Source: Deltaproteobacteria bacterium
Lineage (GTDB): Bacteria > Myxococcota_A > Polyangia > Polyangiales > Houyiibacteriaceae
Length of the DNA stretch: 39,891 nucleotides
Assembly (NCBI GenBank): GCA_013151775.1
Contig: JAADHO010000085.1
Location: 1-39,891, forward strand
Reading direction: 5' to 3'
Positions 18,258-27,086 of this stretch are shown here, one piece after another. Position numbers and translations under genes: made by a program. The notes under the pieces were generated by a model. That model ran no database searches and had not been told where the DNA came from. It saw nothing but the letters and a program-made list of their open reading frames with translations. Numbering within the stretch: the first letter of the stretch is position 1; each line of letters opens with the position of its first letter.

Positions 18258-20542
<2,285 letters not shown>

Positions 20543-20585
20543 ACTCCCAGCGCGAGAAGGCGAAAGCAGAGTTGGCTCCGCCTGC

Positions 20586-21683
20586 TCAGCGGGTCACTCG
20601 ATCGCACATGTCGATGTAGGCTTCGGTCGAGAAGGCTCCGCGTTCGCCAGTGCCCGTCAGGCGCAGGAGCATCACGGGCGGAGCTGGATCTTCGGGCCCT
20701 GGCGTGGGCGGGATGGTCGGGCATGCGTCCATCCCGAAGGAATCCGTCATGCTCGACAGGTTCAGGCTGGTGTAGTCGCCGGGCACCGGCGCGGAGGACT
20801 CGTAGACGCTGGTGTCGAGGCCCGTGATGGTGAAGGGATCGACCGGCGTGCCGCCGAAGAGAGGATCGGCGTGGGGGATCACGCGCACGCTCGAGTCGAC
20901 GGATAGGATCGCTCCGCCGGGGCCGTGGGGCATGTTGATGTCGATGCTGGTGCTTGTGAAGGAGCCGTACGAGTCGACGCTCACGTAGTTGGCGTAGAAG
21001 GGCTGCCGGTCGACGTTCCGATGGCAGGTGATGCGCAGGGCTGGTGGCCAGCGGCTTCCGCTGTGTGCGTCGGCGCAGCGCGCCTCGAAGCTTCCGCCGT
21101 CGATTCGTCCGCGAACGATCAGCCCGAAGCCGCCGAAGCGATCCGTGTCTCCGGCGCAGCGCGAGATCATCTGCGGCATGGCCGGTCCACTGCCGAGCAG
21201 CGCGCCCTCGCTGTCGACGTTGAAGGCGCCGGCGCCCGCCAGCGTGCCGATGGTCGCTCCTCCCTCGGTCACCTCCACCTCGTCGATCACGGCGCAACCC
21301 CCTGCGGCCAGCCCGTCCGGGGACAGGCGCCCGAAGAGCTGGGCCTCGACGCTGCCGGCGCCGTCGTCGAGCACGGCCAACTCGAAGAGATCGCAGTAGC
21401 TTCCGCTCGTCGCCGAGCCGGAGGTCGGCACGCACGCGGGCGTTCCTGCGTCGCTCACGGGTCCCGCGTCGCTCACGGGCCCTGCGTCGCTCATCGGTCC
21501 CGCGTCGCTCACGGGCCCTGCGTCGCTCATCGGTCCGGCGTCGCTCATCGGTCCGGCGTCGCTCATCGGTCCGGCGTCTAGGTCCAGCGCGGAGTCACGA
21601 TCGGTCCCGGCGTCGGTGGGCGCGCCCGGGCTGCTGCCACAGGCGATGAGCAGGAGGCAAGTCAGCAGAGGAAACTTCGACAT
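20586..21683 (-). CDS. Lipoprotein with DAGP(M/V)S tandem repeats
   Basis: From ATG 21683 the product is 365 residues. It has a signal peptide ending in LIAC (lipid Cys 15), a spacer made of seven hexapeptides DAGPMS or DAGPVS (from the 18-bp tandem repeat), and a beta-rich domain of about 290 residues with scattered Cys. The frame is open to 21734, but 21683 gives a proper signal peptide. The spacer probably projects the domain from the outer membrane. No family was recognised. It is followed by maeB on the same strand and diverges from the methyltransferase operon. Confidence 0.7.
   Translation of the reverse strand: MSKFPLLTCLLLIACGSSPGAPTDAGTDRDSALDLDAGPMSDAGPMSDAGPMSDAGPVSDAGPMSDAGPVSDAGPVSDAGTPACVPTSGSATSGSYCDLFELAVLDDGAGSVEAQLFGRLSPDGLAAGGCAVIDEVEVTEGGATIGTLAGAGAFNVDSEGALLGSGPAMPQMISRCAGDTDRFGGFGLIVRGRIDGGSFEARCADAHSGSRWPPALRITCHRNVDRQPFYANYVSVDSYGSFTSTSIDINMPHGPGGAILSVDSSVRVIPHADPLFGGTPVDPFTITGLDTSVYESSAPVPGDYTSLNLSSMTDSFGMDACPTIPPTPGPEDPAPPVMLLRLTGTGERGAFSTEAYIDMCDRVTR
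21448..21573 (-). repeat. Seven-copy 18-bp tandem repeat (coding)
   Basis: Seven consecutive 18-bp units beginning GCGTCGCTCA on the plus strand, plus a partial eighth, encode DAGP(M/V)S on the minus strand. Two unit types alternate, TCACGGGYCCY and TCATCGGTCCS, which indicates recent slippage or homogenisation. Copy number is in-frame variable (6 residues per unit). Confidence 0.9.
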
Positions 21684-21727
21684 GCCTGACTCGTTGCTCC
21701 CGCGACGTGACGCGTTCAGTCCTTCGC

Positions 21728-21755
21728 TTGACATATGAACAGTACATCATATGAT
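21728..21755 (+). promoter_or_regulatory. Sigma-70 promoter of the methyltransferase-arsR operon
   Basis: TTGACA (21728-21733, perfect -35) and TATGAT (21750-21755, one mismatch to TATAAT) are separated by 16 bp, an unusually good match in a GC-rich genome. Transcription would start near 21762. An AGGAGA ribosome-binding site at 21778-21783 lies 6 bases before the ATG at 21790. Confidence 0.75.
21732..21753 (+). promoter_or_regulatory. Probable ArsR/SmtB-family operator
   Basis: CATATGA-N8-TCATATG (21732-21738 and 21747-21753) is a perfect 7-bp inverted repeat. The left half, ATATGAACA, resembles the half-site known for SmtB/CzrA operators. It fills the space between the -35 and -10 boxes, so a bound repressor would block RNA polymerase. 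Further half-sites follow: the perfect 14-bp palindrome ACATCATATGATGT (21744-21757) and CATCAT at 21761-21766. These may allow a second dimer to bind. Confidence 0.65.
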
Positions 21756-21789
21756 GTCTCCATCATGTATATGGAACAGGAGACTCGAG

Positions 21790-22470
21790 ATGCAGCTGAA
21801 GGACGTCCCCTCACACTACGATCGCGCGGCTCGCTGGTACGACGCCGGCCGCTCGATCCTCTTCGACCGCTTGCTCCACATCGAGCAGGAGCGGGAGCAC
21901 ACCATCGATCTGCTCGGTGATCTCTCGGGCGCTCGGGTGCTCGACGTGGGTGTCGGGACGGGCGCGAATCTGCCCTTCCTGGTCTCCAAGGTCGGACCGT
22001 CGGGGAGCGTGCTCGGCGTGGACTACTCCGAGGGCATGCTCGCTCGAGCGTCCGCGCGGGTGGAGTCCGAAGGCTACGCCAACGTGGAGCTGAGGCGCGG
22101 CGACGCCGTCGTGCTCGAAGGCGTGGAGGGCGACTTCGACGCCGTGATCTCCGTCTGGTGTCTGGGCATCGTGCACGATCTTCAGGCGGCCCTCGCGCGC
22201 GCCCTGGAGCTGCTGCGCCCCGGCGGGAAGCTCGCGATCATGGACTTCCGCAGCGTTCGCCCGGACCGCGGACCGCTGAATTGGTTTTTTCCACTCTACG
22301 CGCCCCTGCTGCGCGCGAGCGGGATCGACTCCCGCGAAGATCTCGACGCGGAGCGCTACGAGGCGCGCTGGCGAGACGCACGCGCGTGGCTCGATCCGAG
22401 GATCGACGTACTCCACGAGCAGCGCTACCTCGCGGACACGGGCTTCATCTTGGTGGGCGAGAAGCGATGA
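21790..22470 (+). CDS. Class I SAM-dependent methyltransferase
   Basis: The 226-residue product is a Rossmann-type methyltransferase. Motif I is VLDVGVGTG (Asp 52 to Gly 58), followed by LGVDYSEGML (acidic loop binding the SAM ribose), DFDAVISVWCLGIVHD and LLRPGGKLAIMDFRS. The overall pattern is UbiE/small-molecule-like, and the substrate cannot be read. ATG 21790 is chosen because AGGAGA is 6 bases upstream; an in-frame ATG at 21751 lies inside the -10 box. The stop overlaps the arsR start (ATGA). The CxxC or paired Cys expected of arsenite methyltransferases is not evident. Confidence 0.82.
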   Translation: MQLKDVPSHYDRAARWYDAGRSILFDRLLHIEQEREHTIDLLGDLSGARVLDVGVGTGANLPFLVSKVGPSGSVLGVDYSEGMLARASARVESEGYANVELRRGDAVVLEGVEGDFDAVISVWCLGIVHDLQAALARALELLRPGGKLAIMDFRSVRPDRGPLNWFFPLYAPLLRASGIDSREDLDAERYEARWRDARAWLDPRIDVLHEQRYLADTGFILVGEKR

Positions 22471-22766
22471 GGCAGCACGAGGCGCTCGCCCTCGAGCGCG
22501 CCGTCGACATTCTCTCCTGCCTCGCTCACCCCGTGCGTCTCGCCGTCGTCGCACGCCTCGAGCGAGACGGCGCGGCCACGGTGAGCACCCTGTGCCAGGA
22601 GCTCGACGTGGAGCAGAGCGCCATGTCGCATCACCTACGTCATCTGCGCGACGCTGAGCTCGTCATCGCCGAACGCCGAGGACGCGCCATGCGCTACGCG
22701 CTAGCCGACGCACACGTGGGACACATCGTGCGCGACACGCTCGCCCACGCAGCGGAGGATGATTGA
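22467..22766 (+). CDS. ArsR/SmtB-family metal-sensing repressor
   Basis: The 99-residue winged-helix regulator has the family helix-turn-helix (STLCQELDVEQSAMSHHLRH). Its C-terminus shows D81-x-H83-x10-H94-x2-E97, the same spacing as the alpha-5 zinc site of SmtB (D104, H106, H117, E120). An alpha-3 Cys is present (Cys 43), but the second ligand of the alpha-3N site is not in its usual place, so the alpha-5 site is probably the sensor. The gene overlaps the methyltransferase by 4 bases. An operator sits in the operon promoter, which predicts auto-repression relieved by a metal such as Zn(II). It was called from the ATG at the overlap, not the longer upstream frame. Confidence 0.85.
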   Translation: MRQHEALALERAVDILSCLAHPVRLAVVARLERDGAATVSTLCQELDVEQSAMSHHLRHLRDAELVIAERRGRAMRYALADAHVGHIVRDTLAHAAEDD

Positions 22767-22813
22767 GCAAGTGAGGCTGGGTTGTCGGAGAACGGGCCGC
22801 AACGCAGCGCCAC

Positions 22814-24454
22814 ATGTGCCAGGTTGCTCGCAGGGCGGTCTGCGGCAAAGCTCGTGGCCTCGTGTCCGATCCTGAAATCATCGATGCGGCGCCCGTAGAA
22901 CTCGTTGAGGCTGACGTGCCCGAGAAGGGTCCGGCGCCCGTGGTGCAGGCTCCGCTCGGCGAGCCCGTCTCACCCGCGGCGCTGCTCGCGGCGACAGAGC
23001 TGCTCGAGCGCGTGGTCGAGGACAGGCGCCTGCTCGTGCCCATCGAGGAGCCCCTGCGTCGGCGCATGTTGATGGCGGCGGGGCGCGTCTCGCGTCCGAC
23101 CAAGGACGAGCAGCGGCACTTTCATCGGGCGTATCGGCGCGAACGTCAGAAGGCGCGGCGACTCAAGCAGGAGGCGCTGCTCGACGGCACGGGCATCCGC
23201 GCGAGGCGTCGAGAGCAGGTCTTCGTTACGCCATGTCTCGTGGCCGAGAATGCGGCTGCGGCTGCGACGCCTCCCGTCGATCAGTGGGTGAAGCTCGACG
23301 AGCCGCGTGGCTGCTACGTCTGCAAGCAGGACTTCGAACGGCTTCACTTCTTCTACGACCAGATGTGCCCGAGCTGTGCCGTCTTCAACTATCAGAAGCG
23401 CTCGCAGGTCGCCGACCTCCACGGACGCGTCGCGCTGCTGACCGGTGGCCGCGTGAAGATCGGCTATCAGACGGGCATCCTGCTGCTGCGCGCTGGGGCC
23501 GAGCTTTGCGTCGCGACGCGCTTCCCGCGGGACGCTGCCAAGCGCTACGCGGCGGAGGCGGACTACGAAGACTGGCGCGAGCGCCTCCACGTCTACGGCA
23601 TGGATCTGCGGCACACGCCGAGCGTGCAGATCTTCGCCGACGAGCTGGTCGCCAATCACGCGCGCCTCGACTTCGTGATCCACAACGCCTGCCAGACCGT
23701 GCGTCGGCCCTCAGGCTGGTACGGCCACCTGCTCGAGGGCGAAGAGGATCACGCGGCTCTGCCGGCTCACGCCTCGTCGACCATCGAGCGCAACGACGCC
23801 TTCCGTCTGCGCCTGCGCGAGCGCGGCGTCAGCGGAAAGGCCGTCGGGCTCGAGGCGGCGCCACTGCTCACCCAACTCGCGCTGCTCGCCGAGGATCTCG
23901 ACCACAGCGAGCAACTCTTCCCAACGGGCGCGCTCGATCAGGATCTACAGCAAGTCGACCTGCGCGAGATCAACAGCTGGCGCTTGCCTCTGGCTCAGGT
24001 GCCGACGGTGGAGCTGCTCGAGGTCTTCCTCGTCAACGCCGTAGCGCCCTTCGTGCTCAACGGGCGCTTGAAGCCGCTGATGTTGAAGACCGCCACACGC
24101 GACAAACACATCGTCAACGTGTCGGCGGTCGAGGGGCAGTTCAACCGCTCCTTCAAGACGGACAAACATCCGCACACGAACATGGCGAAGGCCGCGCTCA
24201 ACATGATGACGCGCACCTCGGCGGCCGACTACGTCAAAGACGGCATCCACATGAACAGCGTGGACACGGGCTGGGTGACGGACGAAGACCCCGCCGAGAT
24301 CGCCGCACGCAAGCGCGCCGAGCATCGCTTTCATCCACCGCTGGATATCGTCGACGGCGCCGCGCGCATCCTCGACCCGATCTTCCACGGCCTGAACACG
24401 GGTGAGCATGTGTGGGGGCAGTTCCTGAAGGACTACAGGCCCGCCAAGTGGTGA
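22814..24454 (+). CDS. SDR-family protein with four-Cys zinc-ribbon-like segment
   Basis: The 546-residue product has a charged N-terminal part with a very basic helical stretch (about 90-145). It then has C167-x2-C170...C185-x2-C188, a likely zinc-binding knuckle, followed by a Rossmann domain of the short-chain dehydrogenase type. The cofactor loop is TGGRVKIG (210-217). NNAG is replaced by HNAC (290-293). The active-site Ser is present (VNVSAV, Ser 437), but the YxxxK position reads T455-NMA-K459. A long insert (about 300-400) separates these parts. ATG 22814 lacks a ribosome-binding site. GTG 22862 is an alternative start that would remove 16 residues. Catalytic activity is uncertain with Tyr replaced. 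Confidence 0.75.
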   Translation: MCQVARRAVCGKARGLVSDPEIIDAAPVELVEADVPEKGPAPVVQAPLGEPVSPAALLAATELLERVVEDRRLLVPIEEPLRRRMLMAAGRVSRPTKDEQRHFHRAYRRERQKARRLKQEALLDGTGIRARRREQVFVTPCLVAENAAAAATPPVDQWVKLDEPRGCYVCKQDFERLHFFYDQMCPSCAVFNYQKRSQVADLHGRVALLTGGRVKIGYQTGILLLRAGAELCVATRFPRDAAKRYAAEADYEDWRERLHVYGMDLRHTPSVQIFADELVANHARLDFVIHNACQTVRRPSGWYGHLLEGEEDHAALPAHASSTIERNDAFRLRLRERGVSGKAVGLEAAPLLTQLALLAEDLDHSEQLFPTGALDQDLQQVDLREINSWRLPLAQVPTVELLEVFLVNAVAPFVLNGRLKPLMLKTATRDKHIVNVSAVEGQFNRSFKTDKHPHTNMAKAALNMMTRTSAADYVKDGIHMNSVDTGWVTDEDPAEIAARKRAEHRFHPPLDIVDGAARILDPIFHGLNTGEHVWGQFLKDYRPAKW

Positions 24455-24470
24455 TCTGCAGGCGCGACGA

Positions 24471-27086
24471 TCAGCGCAGCACGCAGGTGCCGAAGGTGGT
24501 GCCCGCCGGAATATTGCAGCGTTCCGTGGTGCGGCAGTCCGAGTCGACGCCGCAGTTGGGTGTGCAGATGCGCTCCGGTGTACTCGGGGCGCCGTCCGCG
24601 TCGACGCAGGCGTAGCCGCTCCGGCAGTCCGTCGCCGAGCTGCAGTCGTGCATGCAACCGGTGACATCCCCCGAGCTTCCGTCGAGGTCGATGCAGGTCC
24701 CCGCGGCGCCGCAGACGTTGCTCGGTGTCCCAGGCGCCACGCAGTCAAGCACGGTGCAGTAGCCGCCGCGGAAGCCCGAGCCGTCCGCAGCAGGTTGTAG
24801 GCACAGACCTTGACCGAAGGGCGACCAGCACTCCGAGTCGTTTGCGCAAGCGGCGCCGATGTTGTTGGTGGTGACCGCGTTGAAGTTGCCAGGCAGGCAG
24901 CCGCCGTTGCTCGTCCCGGCTCCACCTGTGCCGTTCCAGGTGCACATGTAGCCGGTGCGACAGCCGCTCGTGTTGGTCAGCCACGCCGCAGTATCCGCCG
25001 TGGTGGCGCCGGCGGACACGCTGCAGGCTTGCAGGCAGGCGAAGACGCCGACGCGCCGATCCTGACACACGCCGGCTCCTGCGCAGGCGTTGCCTGGGAC
25101 ATCACAGCTGCGCTTGGAGCAGTACCCTCCGGGCCAACCGAAGGTGGCGGTGAAGCACTCTCCACCGGATTCACATTGGCTCGACCGGGCGCACGGGATG
25201 CCCGCCGTGGCGCCGGACGTCCCCGGGTTCGTGCAACGGAACGTGGCGGGGTCGCAGACCGCCGCAGAGGCCGAGTCGTAGACGAGGCGGTCGAAGTTCG
25301 TGTCGACGCCACCGCATACCTGCGAGGCAACGGGCCGCGTCGAATCGCCCGAGCAGGCGTTCGGCGTCTGGAGCCCCGGGATGCCGTTGCTCTCTTCGCG
25401 GGCTACGCGGCATTGGGCGTCGCTGGTGCAGCCCGGGTAGCAGGCCCCGACCACCAGGTTGCAATCGTAGCCGTCCTGGCAGACGTCGTTGTCGACGAGG
25501 TTCGGGGTACACGACTGCATGCACAGCCCCGCGCCACCCCCTAGGTTGACGCAGGTCCCGCAGTCGCCACACGAGGCATCCCTCGGATTGCGCACGTCGC
25601 AGCTCGTCGTCAGCGCGCCCGTGCCGCCGATGTTGGGCGAACAGTAGCCGCCTACCCAATACGTAGCCGATACGCTGGTTCCACCGCCGGGCAAACCCGC
25701 GATCTGATCTCCGCCTCCACCGATCAAGCTTGCCGTTTCGGGAATGCAGCCGCCGCCGAGACAGCCGCTGCCCGCCGTACAGTTTCCGCCGATGGATATG
25801 CAGGACTCCATCACGCACGTGGACCCGCGACGCGCATAGCCCGCGTCGCAGCGGAAGTCGCAGCTACCACCGGAGCAGGTCGCCGTGCCGTTGACCGGTG
25901 CCGCGCACACGGCGCAGCTCGCGCCACAGGCGTTGGCATTCGCGCTCGAGCCACAGGTCGCGCCACCCGGACACGTGAACTCTGCGCAGCTGACGCGGCA
26001 GCTCCCGGCGGAGCAAAACTCCCCCCCCGGACATGTGATCCCGCAGCCGCCACAGTTGCGCGGATCGGTCTGGGGGTCGACGCAGCCTCCTCCGCACAGC
26101 TCTCCGCCGGCGGCGCAGACGCAGCTGCCGGCGGCGCAGACCCAGGGCACGGCGCCGAGGCTGATGCCGCAGTCGTTGGCGCAGCTGCCGCAATGCTGCA
26201 CGTCGGTCGTCACGTCGATGCATCGGAAGTCAGCCCCGAAGCTGCCCGGGCAGGCTGCGGATCCCGCGGTGCCCGAGGTGCAGCTGCAGCTGCTCTCGAT
26301 GGCGAGGTTCTGGCAATCCAAGCTGCAGTCGAGAGCGTCCGCGCAGACGCCGATGGCGGTGGCCACCTCCGGCAGGTTCGAGCAGGGCAGGGCGGCCAAT
26401 CGCGCATCCGTCGCGCAGTCTTCGAATCTCACGGACGCGTCGCACTCCGCGAGGTGACCGCAGTAACGCTCGTGCTGACATTGGAGATCCGGCGTGGTCT
26501 CGTCCACCGTGCCGTCGCAGTTGTCGTCCACGCTGTTGCCGCAGACCTCACGCGCGTCGGGGTTCACGTTCGGGTTGGAGTCGTCGCAGTCCGTGCCGCC
26601 GCACACACGAGGTGGGTCGCCATCGCCGTCGCCGTCGAGCGGATCGCGCAGGCAGGTGCGAGAAGCGGGATCGCAGCGTTCGTCCATGGTGCAGGGATCG
26701 TCGTCCACGCAGTCCGCGTCGGAACCGCAGGCCATGCCCGCCTCGCATCCACGCTCGGGGTTGCAGCTCGCACCCGCGGGGCAGAGGGCCGGCACGGGTA
26801 CATGGCGGCAGACGCGCGTCTCCGGGACGCAGCTGTCTTCCGTGCAGTCGACGCCGTCGTCGCAGTCCGCGTCGCTCGCGCACGTGTCCACGCCCGAGTC
26901 GGCGGAGCCGTCCATCGCGACGGAGCCGTCCACCATGACGGAGGCGTCAGGGCCGGGCCGCGGCGGGCTGCCACCTCCGCAGCCGATCAGACCGACCAGG
27001 CCAGCTAGGGCGCCCACCCACAGGTTGCGCACGAACGCCCCGCCGAACGCAGAACGCGTGCACGTGTCATCTCGGTCCACCCTCAT
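24471..27086 (-). CDS. Very Cys-rich lipoprotein with MopE-like motif
   Basis: The 871-residue product has a long signal region ending in LIGC (lipid Cys about 36) and an Asp-rich spacer. An array of short disulfide-type modules continues to the C-terminus; roughly one residue in ten is Cys. Near residues 150-195 is a MopE-like calcium/metal-binding motif with GGTDCDDSNP and DDNCDGTVDE. Later modules resemble 'CxxDxxCxxGxxC' repeats. ATG 27086 is supported by GGAGGG at 27092-27097; a GTG at 27032 would also leave a signal peptide. It is probably outer-surface and structural or binding; no enzyme motif was seen. The GT87 gene lies 119 bp upstream on the same strand. Confidence 0.78.
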   Translation of the reverse strand: MRVDRDDTCTRSAFGGAFVRNLWVGALAGLVGLIGCGGGSPPRPGPDASVMVDGSVAMDGSADSGVDTCASDADCDDGVDCTEDSCVPETRVCRHVPVPALCPAGASCNPERGCEAGMACGSDADCVDDDPCTMDERCDPASRTCLRDPLDGDGDGDPPRVCGGTDCDDSNPNVNPDAREVCGNSVDDNCDGTVDETTPDLQCQHERYCGHLAECDASVRFEDCATDARLAALPCSNLPEVATAIGVCADALDCSLDCQNLAIESSCSCTSGTAGSAACPGSFGADFRCIDVTTDVQHCGSCANDCGISLGAVPWVCAAGSCVCAAGGELCGGGCVDPQTDPRNCGGCGITCPGGEFCSAGSCRVSCAEFTCPGGATCGSSANANACGASCAVCAAPVNGTATCSGGSCDFRCDAGYARRGSTCVMESCISIGGNCTAGSGCLGGGCIPETASLIGGGGDQIAGLPGGGTSVSATYWVGGYCSPNIGGTGALTTSCDVRNPRDASCGDCGTCVNLGGGAGLCMQSCTPNLVDNDVCQDGYDCNLVVGACYPGCTSDAQCRVAREESNGIPGLQTPNACSGDSTRPVASQVCGGVDTNFDRLVYDSASAAVCDPATFRCTNPGTSGATAGIPCARSSQCESGGECFTATFGWPGGYCSKRSCDVPGNACAGAGVCQDRRVGVFACLQACSVSAGATTADTAAWLTNTSGCRTGYMCTWNGTGGAGTSNGGCLPGNFNAVTTNNIGAACANDSECWSPFGQGLCLQPAADGSGFRGGYCTVLDCVAPGTPSNVCGAAGTCIDLDGSSGDVTGCMHDCSSATDCRSGYACVDADGAPSTPERICTPNCGVDSDCRTTERCNIPAGTTFGTCVLR

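Follow-up and report, generated by a model that had tools for sequence, protein, structure and literature searches.

Repressors of the SmtB/CzrA family bind DNA in the apo form and are released by metal bound at the α5 site. What such a sensor governs when the gene next to its own encodes a SAM-dependent methyltransferase is the question raised by the locus described here, which lies in a 39,891-nucleotide stretch of deltaproteobacterial DNA (contig JAADHO010000085.1; hereafter the window). On the sequence evidence, the locus is probably a reduced, two-gene metal-tolerance operon of the zinc type, composed of an SmtB-type repressor and a methyltransferase (MTase) of metal islands. The pair has no adjacent exporter here, which counts against this reading.

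Layout of the Cassette

The features of the locus are as follows.

21728 to 21755, + strand: promoter, with −35 TTGACA (21728–21733), −10 TATGAT (21750–21755), and a spacer of 16; 11 of 12 consensus bases
21733 to 21768, + strand: candidate operator triad, ATATGA-N8-TCATATGA-N8-TCATGT, conserved 5′ of the operons of SmtB relatives
21777 to 21783, + strand: Shine-Dalgarno-like AGGAG, preceding ATG 21790
21790 to 22470, + strand: class I SAM-dependent methyltransferase (MTase), 226 aa, Methyltransf_25/UbiE-like
22467 to 22766, + strand: ArsR/SmtB-family repressor (ArsR), 99 aa, with the α5 metal site D81-x-H83-x10-H94-x2-E97
22862 to 24454, + strand: SDR-family gene, 96 bp 3′ of arsR

Promoter and gene order are as given in a preliminary description of this DNA. 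The TTGACA-16-TATGAT promoter is the only sigma-70-like site within 20000–24500, and the methyltransferase gene is followed by that of ArsR, its stop overlapping the ArsR start codon at 22467 (ATGA). For the MTase, ATG 21790 is the most likely start, since AGGAG stands in front of this codon and the orthologues begin at the same residue. The SDR-family gene is probably outside the cassette, although read-through into it from arsR is possible because no terminator was found between the two. Its product carries an internal zinc-ribbon-like CxxC…CxxC stretch (CYVC…CPSC) and is conserved across the order. Synteny of this flanking gene yielded no empty site; the neighborhoods are scrambled, and the contig of genome G040 stops just upstream of the gene. 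A minus-strand lipoprotein-like gene with SDAGPM/SDAGPV repeats (21430–21600) also adjoins the cassette.

The ArsR/SmtB Regulator

ArsR has the winged-helix fold of its family, scoring 80.1 bits against the NCBIfam model HTH_metalloreg (cut-off 55) and exceeding the cut-offs of Pfam HTH_20/HTH_5. The PDB entry closest to it, both by sequence and by fold, is SmtB of M. smegmatis (8qkf; 44% identity, TM 0.85), followed by CzrA and SmtB in a Foldseek search with the predicted model (pLDDT 94). The C-terminus, DAHVGHIVRDTLAHAAE, was described previously as D-x-H-x10-H-x2-E; all four residues (D81, H83, H94, and E97) are present and are placed by the predicted model on helix 82–97 or just before it. 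Their match to the α5 Zn site supports the assignment of ArsR as an SmtB-type α5 sensor. Loss of these residues in orthologues, which had been named as a possible objection, is not seen: each of the 14 aligned relatives of SmtB type retains D-x-H-x10-H-x2-[E/H]. Two other ArsR-like proteins encoded in the genome are distant (33–36%) and lack the motif. In the regulator tree, ArsR groups with proteins of genomes G377, G555, and G443 with a support of 90/98, which misses the strict mark of the tool.

The surroundings of ArsR relatives were surveyed in 22 loci with close relatives. Genes for CDF proteins, Zn P-type ATPases, or CzcCBA adjoin 17 of the 22, an ICMT/PEMT-type membrane methyltransferase is the sole recognized partner in four (L057, L214, L216, and L222), and one relative (L210) has no recognized partner. 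SmtB relatives stand directly beside ICMT/PEMT-type proteins in L057, L214, L216 (identical to L035), L222, and L061; most of these loci have the triad, and four have no adjacent exporter. In three further relatives (L037–L039), the regulator is accompanied by znu genes or by a Fur/Zur-like gene, an arrangement akin to the smtB-zur and zitA regulation of mycobacteria (PMC7174638), which also supply the best structural match. The window pair differs from the mycobacterial systems in having neither an adjacent CDF gene nor zur.

The Operator

The perfect CATATGA-N8-TCATATG dyad reported to fill the promoter spacer was located at 21732–21753. It is not alone, as a second copy with two mismatches, absent from the earlier account, follows at 21748–21769; at up to three mismatches, the window holds two copies of the pattern vs 0.27 expected by chance. 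Together they form a triad (21733–21768) of two overlapping inverted repeats that have the middle half-site in common, giving three half-sites with a 16-bp period. The proposal of a promoter-embedded SmtB-type operator thus stands, while its description as a single dyad gives way to a tandem triad. The triad overlaps the −35 element, the −10 element, and the start site, and its inverted repeats with a TGA-N8-TCA core over the promoter have the form of an SmtB-type operator at the level of sequence. The three half-sites may offer room for two adjacent dimers.

As a class, perfect 7-8-7 dyads are fairly common (six in the window), and a Markov null gives a probability of about 0.012 for one in the 107-bp intergenic gap. 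The triad, which spans 36 bp, is rare by comparison: it has no mismatches here, and when the intergenic region was shuffled 3000 times under a Markov model, the closest result still had three. Across the genome (6.05 Mb in 460 contigs), the dyad without mismatches and the triad at up to three mismatches each occur once. The remaining dyad sites, with two mismatches, fall within or next to genes that have no recognized metal link, and they were rejected as operators.

Among the 22 relative loci, the triad is found at zero or one mismatch in 15, a count that is descriptive given that the consensus derives partly from the same loci, and at up to three mismatches in 17. The gap to the 39 control loci is wide, their best triads having five to eight mismatches. 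Several relatives have a TTGAC or TTGC element directly adjoining a half-site, and the promoter-embedded operator looks like the rule within this group. Matches to the triad pattern elsewhere in the class include TetR-like GTCATATGAC tandems, which are probably not SmtB sites. These tandem palindromes, found in G099, G115, G292, G302, and G044 (L070, L071, L083, L084, and L087), share the 16-bp period, have a different core, and are probably TetR operators; a similar site (L072, G151) lies upstream of a TetR-like gene.

The fold, the D/H/H/E signature, the position of the repressor inside the operon that it controls, and the TGA-N8-TCA core overlapping the promoter are all shared with SmtB, CzrA, and NmtR, the α5 sensors of Zn(II)/Co/Ni. 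The present system differs from them in (i) its target, a methyltransferase alone, and (ii) its operator, a compact triad of half-sites with a 16-bp period. The standard form of SmtB operators is inverted 12-2-12 repeats over promoters (PMC8790569).

The Methyltransferase and Its Metal Islands

The MTase fits the broad Pfam models Methyltransf_25 and Ubie_methyltran and misses all curated NCBIfam equivalogs, including ArsM, UbiE, and PmtA, by far. Its SAM-binding motif I is essentially kept, and a single-sequence AlphaFold model of the protein has a pLDDT of 36. Full-length orthologues at 46–57% identity occur in five genomes and form, with the window enzyme, a clade of six (support 97/96) whose sister group holds copper-island methyltransferases of haloarchaea and bacteria.

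All five orthologues lie in metal islands, compared with one of 40 controls, which are more distant generic methyltransferase matches in related genomes scored for metal genes within 6 kb. Fisher's test gives a p of about 5 × 10−6, a descriptive value given that the orthologous loci are small in number and share descent. The relative genomes are mostly drafts with gene calls made in the present analysis, and a contig end lies close to some of the loci. The islands are arranged as follows: (i) in G377, CzcC-CzcB-CzcA-MTase2-triad-SmtB-CDF-MTase-HMA/CDF with short gaps or overlaps, the SmtB being 67% identical to the window's ArsR and the MTase, with an ATGA overlap, 48%; (ii) in G555, the same order as far as the MTase; (iii) in G330, a Zn P-type ATPase, then the MTase, another ArsR, and CzcBA; (iv) in G409, a Zn P-type ATPase about 2.5 kb or less from the MTase; and (v) in G009, CopA, an outer-membrane factor, a multicopper oxidase, the MTase, a ZIP protein, MTase2, and HMA/CDF. 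MTase2, a second and different class I methyltransferase, recurs in the same Czc/Cop islands (L186:5188–5805, L184:2253–2864, and L054:5456–6151) and is absent from the genome of the window at an E value of 10−12 (1e-12).

The nearest plasmid homologues below orthologue level occupy copper islands of Pelagibacterium, Methylomonas, Stanieria, and haloarchaea, often beside a P-type ATPase; those of Natrialba and one of Natrinema lie outside such islands. On haloarchaeal and other plasmids (L060, L065–L068, and L127–L131), the related methyltransferase gene adjoins that of a copper P-type ATPase, whose stop codon it overlaps in L067 and L127. No DNA-level relative was found on plasmids, and no close viral relative was found.

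The preliminary description had called for a search for the ArsR-methyltransferase pair with the same dyad in related genomes, and pair and triad do recur together in two (G377 and G555), which supports the proposed metal-linked methylation operon. Its statement that the methyltransferase is the only coupled gene holds for this genome; elsewhere the enzyme is usually coupled to exporters. Metal-transport neighbors mark the metal-island clade as defined here, while the window's own neighborhood contributes SmtB only, and the MTase-only operon appears to be a stripped-down form of the exporter-bearing loci. Four loci also combine SmtB with a methyltransferase and no exporter, but there the enzyme is the unrelated ICMT/PEMT type. 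Since relatives of both genes share export islands for zinc, cadmium, and copper, the MTase is probably not an odd target but an uncharacterized factor in metal tolerance. A conserved neighborhood is not proof of function, and the MTase could be a passenger of mobile islands.

If it behaves like its homologues SmtB and CzrA, the apo-repressor would sit on the triad and block its own operon. Zn(II) or a similar ion (Co or Cd) would then fill the D/H/H/E site between two α5 helices and release the repressor, upon which MTase and repressor would be made together. The MTase would methylate some constituent of the cell, with a membrane lipid or other small molecule as the most plausible candidate, and thereby lessen metal damage. 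It may act alone or beside exporters encoded elsewhere in the genome, which has three CDF genes, none of them in the window.

Possible Substrates and Competing Explanations

A narrower form of the zinc-type tolerance operon holds that the MTase modifies a membrane phospholipid or quinone in the manner of PmtA or UbiE and so shields the envelope from metals. This proposal is tentative, and its odds are somewhat under even. It draws on weak similarity to a phosphatidylethanolamine N-methyltransferase (PDB 8ys9, E value 1e-9), to PmtA (50 bits, cut-off 390), and to UbiE/MenG quinone methyltransferases (at most 65 bits, cut-offs 158–420); on a next ring of plasmid relatives in Paracoccus and Ruegeria that lie directly 3′ of psd-pssA; and on the SmtB relatives with the same operator that adjoin ICMT proteins matching Pfam Phospholipid methyltransferase, so that ICMT/PEMT proteins fill the slot beside SmtB in sister operons (L057, L214, L216, and L222). 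Every score is, however, far under its curated cut-off, PmtA-like proteins sit on a separate branch outside the MTase clade, and class I methyltransferases are diverse. Methyltransferases are known as accessory genes of metal-resistance clusters: in czc/ncc clusters this place is taken by CzcN and NccN, membrane methyltransferases of the ICMT type (PMC7563307), and merR-copA islands of Alteromonas carry ICMT (PMC8478169). The window enzyme is of a different family, being a class I Rossmann methyltransferase. Given the ICMT/PEMT proteins beside the same operator and the weak PmtA/UbiE similarity, the likeliest class of reaction, on present sequence comparisons, is methylation of a lipid or quinone.

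It is unlikely that the cassette has lost its function and merely survives as the decaying remnant of a metal island. The exporter genes that accompany it elsewhere are missing, its distribution is patchy, and a truncated MTase gene fragment (residues 67–127, 82% identical) lies fused out of context at G000:C293:5354–5536 (L052 and L053), which suggests the remnant of a second copy and hence mobility or duplication. Decay is nonetheless hard to reconcile with the cassette itself, in which both frames, the ATGA overlap, the RBS, the promoter, and the triad are intact, SAM-binding motif I is essentially kept, and the sensor residues are complete.

Methylation of arsenite or another metalloid, with ArsR as an arsenic sensor, is more doubtful still. 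Its precedent is Thermus thermophilus, where TtSmtB controls the SAM methyltransferase TtArsM, an arsenite enzyme reported to have an ArsR-like N-terminal part and a catalytic Cys77 (PMC8649762). Both systems place an SmtB-type regulator over a SAM methyltransferase, and the best of the weak matches to the MTase include NCBIfam models of arsenite methyltransferases. The 67 bits of these models, however, fall far under every curated ArsM cut-off (263–575) and equal those of UbiE-type models. The preliminary description had seen no Cys pattern of arsenite methylation, and the MTase indeed has a single Cys. Neither the two or three conserved catalytic Cys of ArsM nor a conserved single Cys like that of TtArsM is found, as no Cys is invariant among the six orthologues, window enzyme included. 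The absence of an invariant Cys disfavors Cys-based arsenite methylation, the single-Cys Thermus type included. The sensor, moreover, bears the α5 D/H/H/E site, and the orthologues accompany Zn/Cd/Co/Cu exporters.

Metal uptake systems are normally under Zur rather than SmtB derepression. Modification of a metallophore, raised in the preliminary description, is accordingly very improbable: it has in its favor that methyltransferases can decorate metallophores, and against it that no metallophore synthesis genes were recognized near the orthologues or in the set of window genes inspected, the neighbors of the orthologues being exporters, oxidases, and ZIP proteins.

Implications for the SmtB Family

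The zinc-type tolerance operon favored here combines a canonical SmtB system with an output that is unusual for one, namely a methyltransferase without an adjacent exporter. No published account of this class I clade with SmtB was found in the part of the literature covered, and we know of no settled role for the methyltransferases of czc, ncc, and cop clusters. It is possible, though short of an even bet, that the members of this undescribed clade are metal-induced enzymes dedicated to tolerance and shared by zinc and copper islands in bacteria and archaea, in which case methylation alone would be the response of the present operon to excess metal. With its clean promoter-operator, the two-gene SmtB-MTase operon represents a minimal system in which the role of the MTase can be tested without interference from exporters, and the conserved triad can serve as a sequence signature in searches for the regulon to which this SmtB subgroup belongs.
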